From IMG/VR virus record IMGVR_UViG_3300027963_000016, positions 1-35,243 of that record: 35,243 nucleotides of DNA. The stretch is one strand, 5' to 3'. A program made the translations under genes and the position numbers. Positions within the stretch are counted from its first letter, which is position 1. Every line of letters begins with the position of its first letter. The notes under the pieces were generated by a model. The model was given only the letters and a program-made list of their open reading frames with translations. It made no database searches and had not been told where the DNA came from. Positions 4,318-17,122 of this stretch are shown here, one piece after another. The DNA is from a virus.

Positions 4318-4567
4318 GACCAACAGTTGGGCTGCAATGTTTGCGGCTGAACTTAAAGGCCGAGAGACCTTGTTCCCTGCGGACTCCAAATCTAAAGAAC
4401 AGATCATGGCGATGCGAAAGGAAATGGGGATATGCTGTTCCCCAAGTCAGGTGCACAAATTCCTTAAAAAAGAAATGGAAGCGGGCCGACTTAAAATGCT
4501 TACGGGGCGAGTGCTCGACAAAGACGGAAAACTGCAACACGCCGCCCGCTACGTCATCGTCTCCTGA
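4289..4567 (+). CDS. Small winged-helix-like protein
   Basis: A 92-residue protein. The start at 4289 is preceded by an AAAGGA ribosome site at 4276-4281 with good spacing; a longer in-frame start would lie entirely inside the phosphoesterase gene. After a basic N-terminus, the segment SPSQVHKFLKKEMEAGRLKM and the following GRV...ARYVIV read like the recognition helix and wing of a small winged-helix DNA-binding protein. It might regulate early genes, whose control region begins about 200 bases downstream. No close family recognised. Confidence 0.7.
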   Translation: MPLPKSKATKTNSWAAMFAAELKGRETLFPADSKSKEQIMAMRKEMGICCSPSQVHKFLKKEMEAGRLKMLTGRVLDKDGKLQHAARYVIVS

Positions 4568-4776
4568 TGCGCATCAAGATCACAGTCGAGACCCGTAGCG
4601 GCGAGACTGGATCGGAGCGAAATTACGTTTACGCCTGCGAGATGCCCGACAAAACTAGCTTTGAGACCATTGAGGCCCACGTCTCCAACGTCGCTCGGCT
4701 GCTCGACCGCCAGGCGAGCGAGGCGCTGGATGAGGACGACGACGACGACAAAGAGAATTGGAAGGCTACGCCGTAG
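4567..4776 (+). CDS. Small acidic hypothetical protein
   Basis: A 69-residue protein whose ATG shares a base with the preceding stop (TGATG at 4565-4569). It begins with a short beta-like stretch (MRIKITVETRSG) and ends in an Asp/Glu run (DEDDDDDKEN). Strongly acidic tails like this are seen in small phage proteins that mimic nucleic acid or regulate DNA-binding partners, but there is no specific evidence here. It is the last gene before the control region. Confidence 0.6.
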   Translation: MRIKITVETRSGETGSERNYVYACEMPDKTSFETIEAHVSNVARLLDRQASEALDEDDDDDKENWKATP

Positions 4777-4915
4777 CAGGCGGATTTTATCGCACAAATA
4801 AAAGATGCGATAAGCAAGCAACTCAACGCGACTTGCAAAAGATGTCGCACAAATAGATGCAGATTCTTTTCTTTTTGTGTTGCAAAACGAAAACAGCAAT
4901 GAAATAGTCTGTGGC
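4777..4915 (+). promoter_or_regulatory. Early control region with dyads, direct repeats and a promoter-like sequence
   Basis: A 139-bp AT-richer non-coding stretch. A perfect dyad TTATCGCA/TGCGATAA (4787-4794 and 4806-4813) is followed by a weaker GCGAC/GTCGC dyad (4828-4832 and 4844-4848). The 11-mer TCGCACAAATA occurs at 4790-4800 and again at 4845-4855. A promoter-like pair TTGCAA (4880-4885) and AATAGT (4903-4908) with 17 bp spacing points to a start site near 4915, right at the next ATG. Together this looks like an operator-promoter for the long early operon. Inferred; no regulator is identified. Confidence 0.55.
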
Positions 4916-6006: not shown

Positions 6007-7238
6007 ACCTCAACATCACCAAAGGTCCGCGCAAGTCCGCGGTGCGAGCCGTAATTTACGGCGTCGAAGGAGTGGGTAAATCATCGCTTGCGGCGCTTCT
6101 TCCTGAGCCGCTGTTTTTAGACTTGGAGGAAGGCACCCACCAGCTTGACGTTGCCCGCTCAAGCGTGGACACGTTTGCCGGGCTGCAATCGGCGCTTGCT
6201 CAGCTCGCCGTCAATACGGACGGCTACAAGACCGTGGTCATCGACAGCGCCGACTGGTGCGAGCGACTTGCCGCCGAGGCCTTGCTCAAGAAGCAGGGAA
6301 AGAAATCCATTGAGGACTTCGGGTTCGGCAAGGGATTTGTGATGCTTGCCGAGGACATGGCCCGCACGCTCGCTGCGTGCGATACGCTCGTCCATCGCGG
6401 CGTGCATGTCGTCTGGATCGCTCACGCCAAAACCGTTCGTGTCTCCCCGCCTGATATGGTGGATGGGTTCGACCGCTATGAGATGAAGCTGGCGAAGCAA
6501 ATCGGGCCGCTCTTCAAGGAGTGGGCGGATTTGCTGCTCTTCGCCAACTACGAGACCTCGACCATTAAGGGCAACGACGGGCGGGTAAAGGGCGACGGTG
6601 GAAAACGCCGCGTGCTCATCTCTGAGCGCGCCGCCGCTTGGGATGCCAAGAACCGATATGGTCTCCCAGAGATCATGCCGATGATTCAGAACGAGCTGCC
6701 GCCTGAGCTCGCCGCGATCTTCGCCGGTAAGATGACGCCCCGAGCAGCCGCTCCGGTGGCTGCTACTGAGCCCGCTCCGGTCTCGGGTTTCTGGCGGGCG
6801 GCGGACATGCCGGTGGCGTTGGCTACGCCTCAGCAGATCGCCACGCTCACCACCTACGGAAAGAACTCCGTCGGCGCAAAACTTATCGACGCTGCGCTGG
6901 CGCACTACGGACAAATCAGCCCGTCCGACCTCACCACCGATCAGGCCGCAAAGGTGATCACTCGTTGCCAGGAGGAAATGAACAAGCCTGCCGCACCAGC
7001 AGCGAAGCCCACCGGCCCGCTTGCAACCGCTGCCGCTCCGTTCGTCTGGTCCGCAGGTTTCGCGGACTGGATGGCCTCGAACGAGGACGCGGTTAATACG
7101 TTCCTTATCGGTAAGTTTTGGCTCAACGCCGGCCAGACTTGGCGTGACCTCAGCGCCGAGCGCGCGGAGTCTCTTATCCAGCGCGAGGCGGCGTTTGCGG
7201 CGTCGGCCAAGATCCCAGCGCGTGGAGGTGTAGCGTGA
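6003..7238 (+). CDS. Sak4-like RecA-fold ATPase (single-strand annealing recombination)
   Basis: A 411-residue protein. The N-terminal half is a P-loop ATPase of the phage AAA_24/Sak4 kind: Walker A GVEGVGKSS at residues 20-28 and Walker B TVVIDSADW at 77-85, with the typical spacing for this family. Sak4 proteins are shortened RecA-like ATPases that promote strand annealing, usually with an SSB; an SSB-like gene is present at 9245. The C-terminal half (after residue about 245) contains Ala/Pro-rich linkers and two helical pieces, the first near TLTTYGKNSVGAKLIDAAL; this may bind partner proteins. GTGA overlap with the next gene. Confidence 0.8.
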   Translation: MNLNITKGPRKSAVRAVIYGVEGVGKSSLAALLPEPLFLDLEEGTHQLDVARSSVDTFAGLQSALAQLAVNTDGYKTVVIDSADWCERLAAEALLKKQGKKSIEDFGFGKGFVMLAEDMARTLAACDTLVHRGVHVVWIAHAKTVRVSPPDMVDGFDRYEMKLAKQIGPLFKEWADLLLFANYETSTIKGNDGRVKGDGGKRRVLISERAAAWDAKNRYGLPEIMPMIQNELPPELAAIFAGKMTPRAAAPVAATEPAPVSGFWRAADMPVALATPQQIATLTTYGKNSVGAKLIDAALAHYGQISPSDLTTDQAAKVITRCQEEMNKPAAPAAKPTGPLATAAAPFVWSAGFADWMASNEDAVNTFLIGKFWLNAGQTWRDLSAERAESLIQREAAFAASAKIPARGGVA

Positions 7239-7708
7239 TCGCCTATACTGAAGAACAGAAGGCGCGAAAGCGGGCGTTTATGGCCGCATATCGAAAAGCC
7301 AATCCTGAAAAGGTAAAGGCACGGAAGGCCGCATATCGGAAAGCCAACGCTCAAAAGGTTAAGGCGCAGAGTGCCGCATGGTATAAAGCCAACCTTGAAA
7401 AAGAGAGGGCGCGCAGGGCTGCATATCGAAAAGCCAACCTTGAAAAAGAGAGGGCGCGGAAGGCCGCATATCGAAAAGCCAACCCTGAAAAGGAGAGGGC
7501 GCGGAAGGCCGCATATCGGAAAGCTAACCCTGAAAAGGAAAGGGCGCAGAATGCCGCATGGAAAAAAGCCAACCCTAAAAAGGTTAAGGCGTCGAGTCGC
7601 CGAGCCCGTCAGCACGCCCACCTCTGCGAGCTACAAACCACAATCGCGGCCATCCAAAAGGTCGCTGCTACCGCACAGAAACAAATCTCAGCCCAAATCC
7701 AAAAATGA
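7235..7708 (+). CDS. Lysine/arginine-rich tandem-repeat protein
   Basis: A 157-residue protein starting with GTG inside the ATPase stop. Residues about 16-120 are a 15-residue unit repeated about seven times, consensus AAYRKANPEKERARK; the remainder is a helical C-terminus (ELQTTIAAIQKVAATAQK). The repeats are highly basic and predicted to form long helices able to bind nucleic acid. Similar ANPEK repeats are known as extensions of phage HNH or Vsr-like endonucleases, but no nuclease motif is present here, so the repeat stands alone. It could be a nucleoid-type DNA binder or the remnant of an endonuclease gene. Confidence 0.75.
   Translation: MIAYTEEQKARKRAFMAAYRKANPEKVKARKAAYRKANAQKVKAQSAAWYKANLEKERARRAAYRKANLEKERARKAAYRKANPEKERARKAAYRKANPEKERAQNAAWKKANPKKVKASSRRARQHAHLCELQTTIAAIQKVAATAQKQISAQIQK
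7283..7591 (+). repeat. 45-bp tandem repeat within the basic repeat protein
   Basis: Six full copies with an exact 45-bp period start at 7283, 7328, 7373, 7418, 7463 and 7508, and a partial seventh starts at 7553. Each begins GCCGCATATCGAAAAGCC or a close variant. The third and seventh copies diverge most (GCCGCATGG). The reading frame is preserved throughout, so copy number can change without breaking the gene. Confidence 0.9.
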
Positions 7709-11215: not shown

Positions 11216-11508
11216 TTCCTAAAATAGGCAGACCCTTCTCGGCGCTCACCCCCGCCATCATCGAGCGCGAGCGCCTGCGCATGTCGAAGGCCAAGCCCGG
11301 TGCCTACGTCATCACCCGCCGCGCCAAGGAGCTTGGCGTGAAGAGCTCAACTCTCAGCTACCACCTCCGCAACGGCTACGAAGCCAGGTGCGGAGTAATA
11401 ACCTGGCGAAAGCGCACGGCGCTCGCCCTCCGCACCGCCAACAAAGGCAACAACACTCTCGCCGCCAAGATGCTGCGCGAGGCCGCAGACATCCTTGATT
11501 CTCAATGA
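11212..11508 (+). CDS. Small HTH-like DNA-binding protein
   Basis: A 98-residue basic protein. ITRRAKELGVKSSTLSYHLR reads as a helix-turn-helix, with the LGVKSS turn and a basic recognition helix, followed by WRKRTALALRTA and a C-terminal helix TLAAKMLREAADILD. ATGA overlaps at both ends place it in the helicase-nuclease operon. It may be a regulator or a DNA-targeting subunit for the nuclease that follows; function is inferred. Confidence 0.65.
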   Translation: MIPKIGRPFSALTPAIIERERLRMSKAKPGAYVITRRAKELGVKSSTLSYHLRNGYEARCGVITWRKRTALALRTANKGNNTLAAKMLREAADILDSQ

Positions 11509-11816
11509 AAACCTCTCCCCAAATCTTTATGCAATTTTGCACACTCATGGGCCTTCCGGCCCCGGTGGCTGAGTTGCAGTTCGAGCCGCTGCGCCGCTGG
11601 CGCTTCGACTACTCGTGGCCCGAAGCCAAGATCGCGCTCGAAGTCGAAGGCGGCATCTGGTCGGGCGGTCGCCACACCCGCGGCAAGGGCTTTGTTGGCG
11701 ACATGGCAAAATACAACCACGCCGCCCGCCTTGGGTGGCGGGTGCTGCGGGTGCAACCCAAAGATCTCATGACGCTGGCGACGGTGCAACTGGTGAAGGA
11801 GGCAGGCAGCGCATGA
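11505..11816 (+). CDS. Vsr/DUF559-like PD-(D/E)xK endonuclease
   Basis: A 103-residue protein with a compact nuclease pattern: RFDYSW (acidic residue at 43), KIALEVEGGIW (ExE core), then GGRHTRGKGFVGDMAKYN and the terminal LGWRVLRV strand. This is the layout of Vsr and DUF559 nucleases and other small PD-(D/E)xK enzymes. In phages such proteins act as nicking or Holliday-junction enzymes. It is placed directly before a C5 cytosine methyltransferase, which recalls the dcm-vsr pairing. Cleavage specificity cannot be predicted. Confidence 0.75.
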   Translation: MKTSPQIFMQFCTLMGLPAPVAELQFEPLRRWRFDYSWPEAKIALEVEGGIWSGGRHTRGKGFVGDMAKYNHAARLGWRVLRVQPKDLMTLATVQLVKEAGSA

Positions 11817-13069
11817 GCTTTCATATTGCAGACCTTTTCTGTGGGGCCGGTGGCACTTCGACTGGAGCGATTGAAGCAGTAACAATGCTTGGCCACACGC
11901 CGCGCCTGACTGCCGTGAATCACTGGCCGGTGGCGATTGCCACCCACACGCTCAACCACCCCGCGCATCGCCATTTTTGTGCAACCATCGACCAGCTCAA
12001 TCCGCGTGAACTGTTCCGCGATGGCGAGCTTGATCTTCTTTGGGCATCGCCAGAGTGCACCCATCATTCGACGGCGCGTGGCGGCAAGCCCATCAATGAC
12101 CAGTCGCGGGCCTCGGCATGGTGTGTTGCGCGTTGGGCTGAAGCTCTTCTTCCATCAACCATCATGGTGGAAAACGTCCCTGAGTTCGCTACATGGGGGC
12201 CGATTGGAAGCAATGGTCGGCCACTAGCCAGCCGCAAGGGCGAGACCTTTCAGGCCTGGCTGCGCTGCCTTGAGTCGCTGGGCTACACCGTTGAGCATCG
12301 GACGTTCTGCGCGGCTGACTACGGCGACCCCACCACTCGCACCCGTCTCTTTGTGCAAGCTCAGCGTGGACGCAGGCGCATTGTCTGGCCTGATGCCACC
12401 CACGCCGAGATAACCGGCGGCGATTTGTTCGCCTGCAAGCGTAGGCCTTGGGTATCAGCGGCGGAGATCATTGATTGGTCGCTTCCGCTGCCTTCAATCT
12501 TCGACCGCAAGAAGCCTTTGGCAGACAATACCCTTGCCCGCATCTTCAAGGGATTAAAGGCCCACGGCGGGGCAACGATCATTGCGATGGAGCATGGAGG
12601 TCGGAGCCTATCAACCGCCCGACCGCTCCCGACCGTCACGACTGCAAAGGGTGGGGCGTTTGGGGTTGCCTACATCCTTCCCCAGCAATCTTGCGGTAAA
12701 CTCAGGCCCGTCACGAAGCCGATGCCAACCGTCGCGACTGCCGGCGCGCTTGCCCTGATAGTGGAATACTACGGCAACGGTGTGGCTCGGCCCGTTACGG
12801 AGCCGCTTCCCACGGTCACCTGCCGCGACCGCTTTGCGCTCATTCGTCAGCAGGGCGGCGACATTGGCTTTCGGATGCTTCGCTGGAACGAGTTGGCGGC
12901 GGCTCAAGGATTTAGAAGCGACTACCAGTTTACCGGAAACGTGCAGGACAAAACTAAGCAGATCGGCAACGCCGTGCCTCGCAATTTAGCGCGAGCTTTG
13001 GTGCTCGCCGCCATCGGCCAAGTGACCGACGTGGCTGGAATTATCGAACCAACTTTGAAAGCAGTTTAA
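11813..13069 (+). CDS. DNA (cytosine-5) methyltransferase, orphan
   Basis: A 418-residue enzyme from ATG 11813 (ATGA overlap; GGAGG just upstream). Motif I DLFCGAGGTS (7-16) binds SAM; the catalytic loop is SPEC (79-82) with Cys82, where most relatives have PPC; motif VI is ENV (120-122); motif VIII is TRTRLFVQA; motif X is GNAVPRNLA near the end. Between motifs VIII and X, three related segments (RPLPTVTTA, KPMPTVATA, EPLPTVTCR) form the target-recognition region. No cognate restriction enzyme is seen beyond the small nuclease upstream, so it probably protects phage DNA from host restriction. Confidence 0.92.
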   Translation: MSFHIADLFCGAGGTSTGAIEAVTMLGHTPRLTAVNHWPVAIATHTLNHPAHRHFCATIDQLNPRELFRDGELDLLWASPECTHHSTARGGKPINDQSRASAWCVARWAEALLPSTIMVENVPEFATWGPIGSNGRPLASRKGETFQAWLRCLESLGYTVEHRTFCAADYGDPTTRTRLFVQAQRGRRRIVWPDATHAEITGGDLFACKRRPWVSAAEIIDWSLPLPSIFDRKKPLADNTLARIFKGLKAHGGATIIAMEHGGRSLSTARPLPTVTTAKGGAFGVAYILPQQSCGKLRPVTKPMPTVATAGALALIVEYYGNGVARPVTEPLPTVTCRDRFALIRQQGGDIGFRMLRWNELAAAQGFRSDYQFTGNVQDKTKQIGNAVPRNLARALVLAAIGQVTDVAGIIEPTLKAV

Positions 13070-13072
13070 CAA

Positions 13073-14503
13073 ATGATAAAACCTCAATCAGCACTCGGTC
13101 GCACGCCGCCGCACTCGGTCGAGGCGGAAGAGCATCTGCTTTCCGCCTGTTTGCTCGACGGCACCGACATCATCTCGCGTTGCCTGACCAACGAGATCAC
13201 CGCCGCATCTTTCTACATCCCTGCCAACCGCATTATCTTTGAGCAGGTGCTTGAGCTCTACAACGCTGGCACGCCAGTCGATACATCCATTCTGGCCGAG
13301 GAACTTCACAGCGCCAAAAAGCTGGAAGAGATCGGCGGCATCCCTTATCTGCTTCGCGTCTCAAGCAAGATGCCAACCACGGGTCGAGCCTCCTACTTCA
13401 TCGAGAAGATCCGCGAGCTCTCGGTGCTGCGCGACATCATCTCAGCCGGGACTGCCGCGGTGGAGAACTGCTACACCTACTCTGGCCCCGATGACCTCGC
13501 TGGCATCCTCAGCAAGCTCAAGGAGCCTCAGGACAAGGCCGAGATCGGGCTGGGCGGGTGGAAGCCGGTCACCGCCGCTAAGGCCGCGCTGACGCCCACG
13601 CCAGCCCCGCCTGAGCTGATCAGTGGGATGCTTTATGCCGGCGGCACCCTCATGATGAGCGGGGCAAGCAAGAGCATGAAGACTTACACGATGATCCACG
13701 CCGGCCTGGCGGTGGCGTCGGGCAGCGAGTGGATGGGCAAGAAGACCACCCAACGCCCCGTCATCTACCTCAACCTCGAACTCCAACCGTTCGCAATGGA
13801 AAAGCGGGTGCGCGAGATCGCGTCGGCGATGCGGATAGATTGCCCTGCCGCTTTTCACATCGTGAACCTACGCGGCACTCTCGTGAACATCGGCGTGGTC
13901 GAGGCCCAGCTCCACCGCCTCCTGACCCGCCTCGACCCCGGCTTGGTCATCATCGACCCTCACTACAAGATCAGCGCCGCCTCGGGCGTGGACGAGAACA
14001 GCAACGACGCCCAAGGGCTCCTTCTCTACCGGCTTGAGAACACCATCTGCAAACGCGGCGCGGCCCTGATGATCGCTCACCACTTCAGCAAGGGCGACAA
14101 GTCCCAGACCAAGGCGATGGACCGCGCCGCCGGCGGCGGTGCGCTGGCCCGCTGGCCGGATGTCATCATGACGCTCACCGAACACGAGGACGAGGGCTGC
14201 TGCGTGGCTGAGTTTTCCTTGCGCAACTTCGCCCCGATCCCGGCGTTCGTGTTGCGTTGGGAATATCCGGTTTGGCATCTGGCAGAGGGTGCCGATGCTA
14301 GCAAACTCAAGAAGGCGGGTCGGCCTGCAAAGAACCCAGCAGAGTCCTTGTTGCCCCTCATCCCTCACAACGGAATTACGCGGGGTGAACTGCTCAAGCT
14401 AGTTCAGGACAAGTGGTCGCAACCCTCGCTTTACAAAGCAGTCAAAAAGCTCATCGACGACAAAAAGGTGCGGGAGATGAGCCACCAAATCTACGTCGTT
14501 TGA
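13073..14503 (+). CDS. Replicative helicase/ATPase with DnaB-type N-terminal domain and RepA-like core
   Basis: A 476-residue protein. Residues 12-125 match the DnaB N-terminal domain (HSVEAEEHLLSACL, GTPVDTSILAEEL, LEEIGGIPYLL). The ATPase core has Walker A SGASKSMKT (196-204), a RepA-type variant lacking the usual Gly before Lys, and Walker B LVIIDP (291-296). The last 90 residues contain a winged-helix-like domain (GITRGELLKLVQDKWSQPSL). RepA-family ATPases act as hexameric replication helicases. It sits immediately upstream of an AT-rich array of 9-bp repeats, which suggests origin function. Confidence 0.85.
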   Translation: MIKPQSALGRTPPHSVEAEEHLLSACLLDGTDIISRCLTNEITAASFYIPANRIIFEQVLELYNAGTPVDTSILAEELHSAKKLEEIGGIPYLLRVSSKMPTTGRASYFIEKIRELSVLRDIISAGTAAVENCYTYSGPDDLAGILSKLKEPQDKAEIGLGGWKPVTAAKAALTPTPAPPELISGMLYAGGTLMMSGASKSMKTYTMIHAGLAVASGSEWMGKKTTQRPVIYLNLELQPFAMEKRVREIASAMRIDCPAAFHIVNLRGTLVNIGVVEAQLHRLLTRLDPGLVIIDPHYKISAASGVDENSNDAQGLLLYRLENTICKRGAALMIAHHFSKGDKSQTKAMDRAAGGGALARWPDVIMTLTEHEDEGCCVAEFSLRNFAPIPAFVLRWEYPVWHLAEGADASKLKKAGRPAKNPAESLLPLIPHNGITRGELLKLVQDKWSQPSLYKAVKKLIDDKKVREMSHQIYVV

Positions 14504-14533
14504 CCAAAAAACCAATCAACCCAAACCAATCAC

Positions 14534-14675
14534 TTACGTAACTTTTCTCATAATTCTCATAATTCTCATAAGCTATTTTGAGAAGCCCCTTTTTTTTATT
14601 CTCAGAACACTACGTGATTCTGAGAAAGAAAAAAGGGTCAATGGGCGAGCTTTCGAGAACAAATAATATTGAGAA
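14534..14675. other. Iteron-like repeat array, candidate replication origin or operator
   Basis: In a 207-bp AT-rich gap after the RepA-like gene are three perfect tandem copies of TTCTCATAA (14545-14571), another copy TTCTCAGAA (14599-14607), and inverted relatives TTTTGAGAA (14576-14584), TTCTGAGAA (14618-14626), TTTCGAGAA (14651-14659) and TATTGAGAA (14667-14675). The palindrome TTACGTAA lies at 14534-14541. The central copies are the heart of a long near-perfect inverted repeat (14587-14637) with poly-T and poly-A flanks. Iterons beside a replication gene and an HTH gene are typical of an origin; an operator for the HTH protein is the alternative. Confidence 0.7.
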
Positions 14676-14710
14676 ACGTAAGTCGAAAAAGAAACGGAGC
14701 AAAAACCACC

Positions 14711-15046
14711 ATGAGCTACGAAAGAAAAACCACCCGCCCGAACTGGGAATACACCCTGCCCGAACTCCAAGCGATGGCCAAGCTGGCCGCAGCAACGTCG
14801 CTGTGGCACGCTGCGGGGGCGCTGGGGGCAAGTTGGGCCACAGTCAGGCGGGCGTGCCGCCTGACGGGCTTGGAGCCCCGCCGCAGGCCTTCCAACGCCA
14901 ATGCCAAGGCCAAGGCGCTGCGGTTGCGGGCCAAGGGCCGCACCTACGCCGAGATCGGGCGTGTAGTTGGGTATAACCAGCAGTCCGTGTTTAACTGGTG
15001 CCGGGATGCTGAGTTGGCGGTCGATTGCCGGAGGAAGGCAGCATGA
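14711..15046 (+). CDS. Small HTH DNA-binding protein beside the repeat array
   Basis: A 111-residue basic protein from ATG 14711 (CGGAG upstream at 14695-14699); an in-frame TTG at 14669 would begin inside the repeat array. Two helix-turn-helix-like segments are visible: LWHAAGALGASWATVRRACR and LRAKGRTYAEIGRVVGYNQQ, the second with the standard pattern of transposase/resolvase-like HTHs. There is no catalytic domain. Being next to the 9-bp repeats, it is the best candidate to bind them, as an initiator-type or autoregulatory protein. ATGA overlap with the next gene. Confidence 0.7.
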   Translation: MSYERKTTRPNWEYTLPELQAMAKLAAATSLWHAAGALGASWATVRRACRLTGLEPRRRPSNANAKAKALRLRAKGRTYAEIGRVVGYNQQSVFNWCRDAELAVDCRRKAA

Positions 15047-15666
15047 GCAGGATTCTTTACGCATCGCAGCCAAGGGTGCAGCCGCTTCTCTCCATCCTTA
15101 CCCCGGCCATTCCGCAGCGTCTCGCGCAGCTTCAGGTGCTTGGCGCGGAGATTGAGCGTCAGCGCGTGGGCGTTGAAGAGAAGGTCGAATGGCTGGCGCT
15201 GGTCGATCCTTGCGGCCACCGCACCATCGGCGAGAAGCGCGACGAGCTCGTGCAGTTGGCCCGTGGTCGGTTTGTCGCTTTCGTGGACGACGACGACGCC
15301 ATCTCACCCGATTATGTCACTTACCTTCTCGGCGCGATCCGCGAGGCCGACGCGAACGTCTCGGTCATTACTTTCCGCCAGGCTGCTTCGTGGAACGGCC
15401 AATGCTCGACGGTTGAGTTTCGCCTCGGGCAGCTCAACGCCCCATTCGCGGTCGGTGGCATCACCCAGCGCAACGCCTGGCACGTTTGTGCTTGGCGCTC
15501 GACGCTCGCCAAGGCCCACCATTTCCCAGCGACCAACTACGGCGAGGATTGGGCTTGGGCTCGTCACCTCTGCCTTAGCGCCGCCGGCGAGATTCACATC
15601 CCTTTAGTCCTACACACCTACACCCACCATGAAAACACAACAGCAGCACCAGCACCCACAGCCTGA
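15043..15666 (+). CDS. GT-A family glycosyltransferase (GT2-like)
   Basis: A 207-residue protein from ATG 15043 (ATGA overlap; GGAGG at 15030-15034). The N-terminus LLSILTPAIPQRLAQL is the first GT2 strand-helix, TIGEKRDELVQLARGRFVAF leads to the metal/nucleotide-sugar motif VDDDD (81-85), and later NYGEDWAWARHL resembles the GT2 ED motif that supplies the base. Such enzymes move a sugar from a nucleotide-sugar to an acceptor. The donor and acceptor are unknown; phage targets are capsid proteins, modified DNA bases or host surface sugars. Its placement between replication and packaging genes is unusual. Its end overlaps the next gene by 38 bases. Confidence 0.85.
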   Translation: MSRILYASQPRVQPLLSILTPAIPQRLAQLQVLGAEIERQRVGVEEKVEWLALVDPCGHRTIGEKRDELVQLARGRFVAFVDDDDAISPDYVTYLLGAIREADANVSVITFRQAASWNGQCSTVEFRLGQLNAPFAVGGITQRNAWHVCAWRSTLAKAHHFPATNYGEDWAWARHLCLSAAGEIHIPLVLHTYTHHENTTAAPAPTA

Positions 15667-16471: not shown

Positions 16472-17122
16472 ATGAAACTTCAAATCACTTACCTAAAGAC
16501 CAACGACCTGCTACCTTACGCAGGCAACTCCCGCACCCACTCGGACGAGCAGGTGAACCAGATCGCCGCTTCGATTAAAGAGTTCGGCTTCGCCGCCCCC
16601 ATCTGCGTCGCCGAGGGCACGATCCTTGCCGGCCACGGGCGCGTTATGGCCGCTCGGAAGCTCGGCCTGGAGGAAGTTCCCACCGTGGACCTCTCCCACC
16701 TGACGCCGGCCCAGCGTCGGCAATACGTGGTAACCGACAACAAGCTCGCCCTCAATGCCGGCTGGGACGAGGAGATGCTTGCCGCCGAGATCGCGCTGAT
16801 GGCCGAGGAGGGCAGCGACCTGGACGTGCTCGGCTTTACGGCTGATGAGCTAGCGGAGATCCAAGCCGAGACGACAGAAGCCGAGACCGATCCTGACGAG
16901 ACGCCTGAAGCTCCAGTGCAGCCGGCCAGCGTTCTTGGAGACGTTTGGGTGATGGGCAACCACAGAATAATCTGCGGAGATTGCACCAATCCTTCCAATC
17001 CGGCCTACGTCGATGTGGCCGTCACCCGTTGGCAGAACTTCACCGGCAAGCAGGCGATTAACGAAGCCACCGGCAAAACCTTTGACGAGACGAAGGCCAA
17101 GATGGAAGGCGCGAAGAAATGA
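16472..17122 (+). CDS. ParB-like protein with truncated methyltransferase fusion
   Basis: A 216-residue protein. Residues 3-100 are a ParB/Srx-type domain (LLPYAGNSRTHSDEQVNQIA and the GHGR motif at 54-57 in LAGHGRVMAA). In phages and plasmids this domain is often fused to an adenine-type DNA methyltransferase introduced by GDVWxLGxHRLxCGDxT. Here that entry segment is present (GDVWVMGNHRIICGDCTN, 156-173), but the catalytic core with DPPY is missing, and the sequence jumps at about residue 175 to a tail (YVDVAVTRWQNFTGKQAIN) that resembles the normal end of such methyltransferases. So it looks like an in-frame internal deletion. Confidence 0.75.
   Translation: MKLQITYLKTNDLLPYAGNSRTHSDEQVNQIAASIKEFGFAAPICVAEGTILAGHGRVMAARKLGLEEVPTVDLSHLTPAQRRQYVVTDNKLALNAGWDEEMLAAEIALMAEEGSDLDVLGFTADELAEIQAETTEAETDPDETPEAPVQPASVLGDVWVMGNHRIICGDCTNPSNPAYVDVAVTRWQNFTGKQAINEATGKTFDETKAKMEGAKK

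Follow-up and report, generated by a model that had tools for sequence, protein, structure and literature searches.

A candidate iteron origin next to a predicted DnaB-type initiator helicase with a C-terminal winged helix in a virus genome

Introduction

Helicases of the DnaB type are usually brought to origins by initiators and loaders that are separate proteins; in a review of the subject, SV40 large T antigen and papillomavirus E1 are the only helicases listed with a fused origin-binding domain (PMC3401641). In the PICI/SaPI elements, the gene for the initiator helicase is followed directly, on its 3' side, by the origin, where a possible melting site, rich in AT, lies between two sets of short iterons; these iterons are recognised by the C-terminal domain of Rep (PMC6092414, PMC7581432). 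For SCCmec Cch2, which works with a separate primase-polymerase, direct repeats located just after the helicase gene are bound by the C-terminal domain in isolation (PMC7581432). The alpha protein of phage P4 combines origin recognition and helicase in one polypeptide (Ziegelin et al. 1993, as cited in PMC8965321). At the origin of plasmid RSF1010, which is melted by a separate protein, RepC, the helicase RepA has a RecA fold (PMC8965321). For Vibrio PLEs, experiments have shown that the initiator RepA covaries with its origin and that the two are exchanged as one unit (PMC8263062); this RepA belongs to the RepA_N family, with an N-terminal DNA-binding domain and no predicted helicase activity (PMC7145576).

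The locus described here was found in the virus record IMGVR_UViG_3300027963_000016, and the whole stretch of 35,243 nt is referred to below as the window. A 127-bp terminal direct repeat was found, in agreement with the 35,116-bp circle proposed originally. The locus has the rep-ori organisation defined for PICIs/SaPIs (PMC6092414), as the candidate origin lies immediately 3' of the helicase gene, its two sets of short repeats flank an AT-rich region, and the C-terminal domain of the helicase is predicted to recognise them. However, the motors of SaPI Rep proteins belong to other helicase families (Cch and Cch2 relatives), whereas that of the window has the DnaB/RecA fold and is of neither the D5 (Primase_Cterm) nor the DUF927 type seen in SaPI Rep and Cch2. 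Cch2 also differs in that its helicase is D5-related, has 3'-5' polarity and goes with no more than three iterons of 5 nt (PMC7581432). Unlike in RSF1010, recognition appears to be fused to the motor, and the P4 alpha protein has a primase activity of its own where the window's helicase has a DnaB_N domain. The window is not a PICI/SaPI satellite, encoding TerS and TerL in a closed genome of 35.1 kb, and its prophage relatives are not satellites either, because they carry terminase, portal, head protease and major head/capsid genes.

Results and Discussion

Repeat array in an AT-rich gap

The gap between the stop codon of the helicase gene and the start of the gene for a 111-aa HTH protein is 207 bp long and has a GC content of 35.7%, compared with 59.5% for the whole window, which bears out the size, place and low GC content first described. 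It is the lowest-GC 200-bp segment of the phage and also ranks first for repeated 6-mers. TGAGAA occurs 15 times in the window, seven of these in the gap, where there is also one degenerate copy, and six of the seven copies of TTNTGAGAA lie inside the gap; seven copies of any 6-mer were obtained in none of 2000 dinucleotide-preserving shuffles. The sequence TTCTCATAA forms a perfect tandem at 14545, 14554 and 14563 and is absent from the rest of the window. Together with five related copies in both orientations, one of them degenerate, it makes up the array as originally placed (Table 1): four of the five copies to the left of the hairpin centre (1-3 and 5) are forward, copy 4 being inverted, and every copy to its right (6-8) is inverted. 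The gap combines several short repeats with a non-coding AT-rich region, as expected of an iteron origin.

The near-perfect 20-bp inverted repeat with T and A runs noted originally is present as two 20-nt arms (14588-14607 and 14618-14637) that are 85% complementary across a 10-nt spacer. As single-stranded DNA, the 56-nt strand at this hairpin folds at -15.9 kcal/mol (z -7.5), and the element is a candidate for melting or strand opening. A perfect 8-bp outer inverted repeat, ACTTACGT and ACGTAAGT, brackets the array. DnaA boxes (TTWTNCACA), which would mark a DnaA-dependent origin, are absent from the gap, and neither an intrinsic terminator nor a sigma-70 promoter was found within it. Cumulative GC skew over the circle, which had been suggested as a test, is uninformative and lends no support to an origin: it declines over the entire circle, and after detrending its maximum at 15,298 is close to the array but has terminus-type polarity.

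Table 1. Features of the helicase-array locus and neighbouring genes in the window
Feature	Position	Strand	Basis or state in relatives
C5 cytosine methyltransferase gene, just upstream of helicase	11813-13069		Missing from L003 and L005; replaced by a different gene in L002
Predicted initiator helicase, 476 aa (DnaB_N, AAA_25 of RecA fold, C-terminal winged helix)	13073-14503	+	Pfam, AlphaFold2
DnaB_N-like domain, residues ~12-134	13073-13474	+	Pfam, AlphaFold2; 2r5u match
C-terminal winged helix, residues 422-476, predicted iteron-binding	14336-14500	+	AlphaFold2; winged-helix PDB matches
Recognition-helix patch, residues 449-464	14417-14464	+	Changes with repeats; helix 450-462 in models
AT-rich intergenic region with predicted replication origin	14504-14710	.	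GC and repeat richness; backbone kept in L002 and L003
Left outer boundary repeat ACTTACGT	14532-14539	+	Identical in L002, partly kept in L003
Iterons 1-3, three tandem TTCTCATAA	14545-14571	+	L003 cores TTTCGG, TTCCGG, TTCCGG
Iteron 4, TTTTGAGAA	14576-14584	-	L003 core CCGGAA
Central inverted repeat, T-run/A-run arms around CACTACGTG	14588-14637	.	CACTACGTG kept in L002 and L003
Iteron 5, TTCTCAGAA, hairpin left arm	14599-14607	+	L003 core TTCCGG
Iteron 6, TTCTGAGAA, hairpin right arm	14618-14626	-	L003 core CCGGAA
Iteron 7, degenerate TCGAGAAC	14653-14660	-	TTGAGAAC in L002, TCCGGAGC in L003
Iteron 8, TATTGAGAA	14667-14675	-	L003 region TTTCCGGAAAA
Right outer boundary repeat ACGTAAGT	14676-14683	-	Kept in L002 and L003
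111-aa HTH protein gene	14711-15046		HTH_23 match 4.6e-07
Glycosyltransferase family 2 gene, between replication and packaging genes	15043-15666		PHROG glycosyltransferase 2.5e-23
ParB_N protein gene	16472-17122		ParB-like profile matches

Domain architecture of the helicase

Pfam recognises two domains only, DnaB_N (PF00772, 5.5e-22) and AAA_25 (PF13481, 1.4e-25), and with a DnaB N-terminal domain joined to a RecA-type motor the protein has the domain make-up of a DnaB-type (SF4) replicative helicase; its Walker A motif is the variant GASKSMKT. DnaB structures came out on top in the fold comparison (Z ~19), the large rmsd of the full-length rows being due to domain arrangement, and the DnaB_N-like domain aligned with 2r5u at Z 19.4 and an rmsd of 1.4 over 139 residues. 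The family profile matched the RSF1010 RepA structure 1g8y at 1.2e-06. In the full-length AlphaFold2 model, a DnaB-type N-terminal bundle is followed by the RecA-type motor and a C-terminal winged helix, which DnaB replicative helicases do not have; as this model is only moderate (pTM 0.47), its inter-domain arrangement was left unused.

When modelled alone, the C-terminal domain reached a pLDDT of ~94 over residues 421-476 and displayed the three helices and beta-hairpin wing of a winged helix, and in two AlphaFold2 models its third helix is the recognition helix and coincides with the patch that changed between relatives. In the PDB it has matches of moderate strength (Foldseek E values from 0.014 upwards, Z reaching 9.2) to many winged-helix proteins; therefore the fold is identified and the family is not. 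The replication-region proteins scanned include no other recognisable initiator or helicase loader. It is possible that the DnaB_N-like domain contacts the host DnaG primase.

Joint change of repeats and recognition helix

Two IMG/VR relatives, L002 and L003, hold the complete region. L002 has a helicase 96% identical to that of the window and keeps the window's repeats, with 49 of 50 core positions identical. In L003, with a helicase of 88% identity, the ends, the CACTACGTG centre and the spacing of the array are kept, and all eight repeats have changed from TTCTCA/TGAGAA to TTCCGG/CCGGAA, so that only 25 of the 50 core positions are identical; the array backbone is similarly close to the window in both (113/136 positions in L003, 115/136 in L002). 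Two small ORFs lie between helicase and array in L003 (6458-6861), with no clear known family and weak PHROG matches for one of them.

An operator for the 111-aa HTH protein was the main alternative in the original prediction; by binding the repeats, this protein would control the operon to which its own gene belongs. HTH proteins often bind repeats 5' of their own genes, and the array does lie immediately upstream of this one, whose product has an HTH_23 match. The two relatives contradict such a role: the HTH protein of L003 is 98% identical (2 of 111 residues differ) despite a change in every repeat, and in L002 the window's repeats adjoin a different downstream gene. A sigma-70-type promoter match is also absent from the region, other promoter types being outside the scan. 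We therefore do not regard the HTH protein as the binder, and consider the operator very unlikely.

The helicase itself, which was overlooked originally, is the likely binder of the repeats. Among the proteins common to all three genomes, nearly all are closer between the window and L003 than between the window and L002, with a near-tie for the protein at 11505 (95% for L003 and 96% for L002). The only clear reversal concerns the two ends of the helicase: its N-terminal 108 residues are 65% identical to the window in L003 and 93% in L002, and its C-terminal 66 residues 83% and 98.5%, respectively, whereas the motor is equally close to both. Within residues 109-476, 8 of the 18 replacements between the window and L003 fall in the patch 449-464, a result seen in none of 20000 permutations; half of the 16 patch residues differ in L003 and none in L002. 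The patch codons carry four synonymous changes between the window and L003, and residues 109-448 carry 78 synonymous and nine non-synonymous ones. This comparison indicates that the array is recognised by the C-terminal end of the helicase. Two caveats apply, namely that the N-terminal domain also differs between the window and L003, and that part of their covariation could come from linkage, since the recognition helix and the array are only ~70-250 bp apart in the window.

Centromeres are repeat arrays too, and ParB-like profiles match the product of a gene downstream (Table 1), which could suggest a partition site for this ParB_N protein. The PHROG that it matches best, however, groups DNA methyltransferases having a ParB-like N-terminus, the proteins scanned include no recognisable ParA, and changes in the repeats accompany those in the C-terminus of the helicase, so that a centromere-like role appears extremely improbable.

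Further near-isogenic pairs, chosen for similar motors, are consistent with recognition of the repeats by the winged helix. L157 and L159 lie in the same genome, and their helicases are 95% identical in the N-terminus, 100% in the motor and 49% in the C-terminus; their arrays have no repeated 6-mer in common (TGTCCCG versus GCACCA), and the bases around the hairpin are alike. Therefore the N-terminal domain need not change much with the repeats, which answers the first caveat but not that of helix-array linkage. L157 and L158, with a 100% identical C-terminus, have the same repeats, and L134 and L154, at 74% C-terminal identity, share an identical recognition helix (SRASFYRILEKL) and the repeat GTCTCA. 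Both C-terminus and repeats have changed in L136/L138 and L134/L153. Joint change is thus seen in several independent relatives, with four switches, window/L003 included, and three pairs, window/L002 included, in which both helix and repeats are unchanged.

Over diverse members, Mantel-type tests of C-terminal-domain against repeat similarity were not significant, either by rank correlation in 11 systems (rho 0.05, p 0.34) or in 37 members (rho 0.08, p 0.14; partial 0.10, p 0.08), probably reflecting saturation by distance. The relation between helix and repeats is visible only among close relatives, and no general code is claimed.

Distribution of the family and its origins

A profile of motor and winged helix was run on the class to which an Opitutaceae MAG belongs, and it identified the helicase in 47 of 384 genomes. 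In a mechanical count over 45 loci, the 250-bp segment that follows the helicase gene is the richest in repeats within its locus in 18 and holds the best hairpin in 12, with ~1.5 expected; about half of the relatives lack a clear array at this position. Many of these class genomes have repeats and a hairpin directly 3' of the helicase gene, often with a ATCCCTTTAGGGTAT-like centre. Such a centre recurs in L133, L140, L146, L152 and others, in otherwise different origins, and is possibly a conserved melting or priming element.

Distant relatives from IMG/VR and MAGs follow the same plan with other repeats, such as GGTCCAAAA in L014, GTCCCAAAAC in L020, CATTAAAC in L048, GTTCCGTTCA in L050 and GTTTAAC in L066, the last in a Sulfuritalea MAG contig; further arrays were seen by eye in L055 and L056. 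Within 20-kb regions around clade-B helicases, arrays were found by scan or eye in L048, L055, L056, L126 and L127, and none in L044/L045, L022, L021, L015/L067 and L065. L126 carries a CTGCCAAAA array around a long hairpin (TATATATAAAAATACGTAGTATTTTTATA) at 16490-16690, ~6 kb from the helicase. In the 73.8-kb record of L127, two separate GTCTCATG arrays with hairpins occupy an unusual position (4330-4900), ~4.4 kb from the helicase.

The N-terminal parts vary in the family: the window has DnaB_N, L137 and L139 have BT4734-like_N (with PriCT_1 in one of them), and none was recognised in others. The contexts of L174, L175/L176 and L177 are prophage-like, and they share with the window the gene order of a Sak4-like protein, a second helicase, the initiator helicase and the array; L174 and L175/L176 have packaging and head genes as well. 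Genome G358 has four helicase matches on contig C1 (4499445, 4535165, 4570885 and 4606605; L165, L175 and L176) at an exact spacing of 35,720 bp. They form a tandem array of a phage-like element carrying TerS/TerL, a Sak4-like protein and an integrase, which may be a genuine prophage repeated in tandem or an artefact of assembly.

A contig profile search with clade B returned 56 loci, mostly in Opitutaceae/Verrucomicrobiota, with many of them apparently representing host DnaB N-terminal domains; the same search of genome contigs with the close helicase alignment gave no matches. No near-identical DNA was found in cultured phages, and tblastn against phages gave partial matches only, none covering 80% of the query. 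For the family, leaving the window's own host aside, the distribution of relatives and the DnaB_N matches point to Verrucomicrobiota (Opitutia).

A predicted origin read by its helicase

The gap is very probably the vegetative replication origin of the phage, with the helicase encoded upstream as its own initiator and the winged helix binding the 9-bp repeats. The original proposal of an origin beside the helicase has gained from the anatomy conserved in many relatives and from the change of the repeats together with the DNA-binding domain of the helicase. Judged from sequence comparison, an iteron origin that is PICI/SaPI-like in anatomy but has a DnaB/RecA-fold motor is the best explanation of the array.

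It is also conceivable that the winged helix binds the array mainly for autoregulation, copy control or recombination-dependent replication, with initiation elsewhere. Plasmid iterons have a role in copy control too, and recombination-dependent replication is plausible because a Sak4-like annealing protein, an SSB-like protein and a second helicase are encoded near the helicase. However, the AT-rich centre, the hairpin and the two opposed repeat sets resemble an origin, a site 3' of the helicase gene is a poor place for its operator, and the position of the array is identical in many relatives; we consider initiation elsewhere unlikely.

At an origin of the predicted type, the winged helix would dock helicase subunits on the two opposed repeat sets, which would place the RecA-fold motor at both flanks of the AT-rich centre. 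This centre, with its hairpin, would melt locally or open and let the helicase load without a separate loader, a RecA-type ring would assemble on the exposed strands, firing would be bidirectional, and the DnaB-type N-terminal domain could then bring in the host primase. Loading, direction and primase recruitment are proposed here by analogy with SaPI Rep, Cch2 and DnaB (PMC7581432, PMC3401641).

A broader reading, for which we see the chances as even, is that these proteins form a widespread and undescribed group of Verrucomicrobiota prophage initiators, in which an origin-reading winged helix is fused to a DnaB/RepA-type RecA-fold motor (a self-loading SF4 helicase) with interchangeable N-terminal modules (DnaB_N or primase-associated). 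Helix and iterons would have been paired anew repeatedly, two prophages of the same genome included, and the pairs would amount to natural replication specificities or incompatibility groups. An earlier description of such a family elsewhere is possible, the literature covered being open-access full text. The natural near-isogenic pairs, which differ mainly in the origin-reading domain and the repeats, would offer a simple test of how such helicases are loaded and a handle on the rewriting of replication specificity. Possible drivers of the re-matching are incompatibility between co-resident prophages and escape from defences directed at origins, for which Vibrio PLEs are a precedent (PMC8263062).

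Neighbouring genes

No link was found between the repeat change and the cytosine methyltransferase encoded 5' of the helicase, which had been regarded as a possible driver. The ORF at 7235-7708 encodes internal repeats (RKAAYRKANPEKERA...) and aligns in several registers with L003 and L005, which is likely to reflect variation in repeat number.
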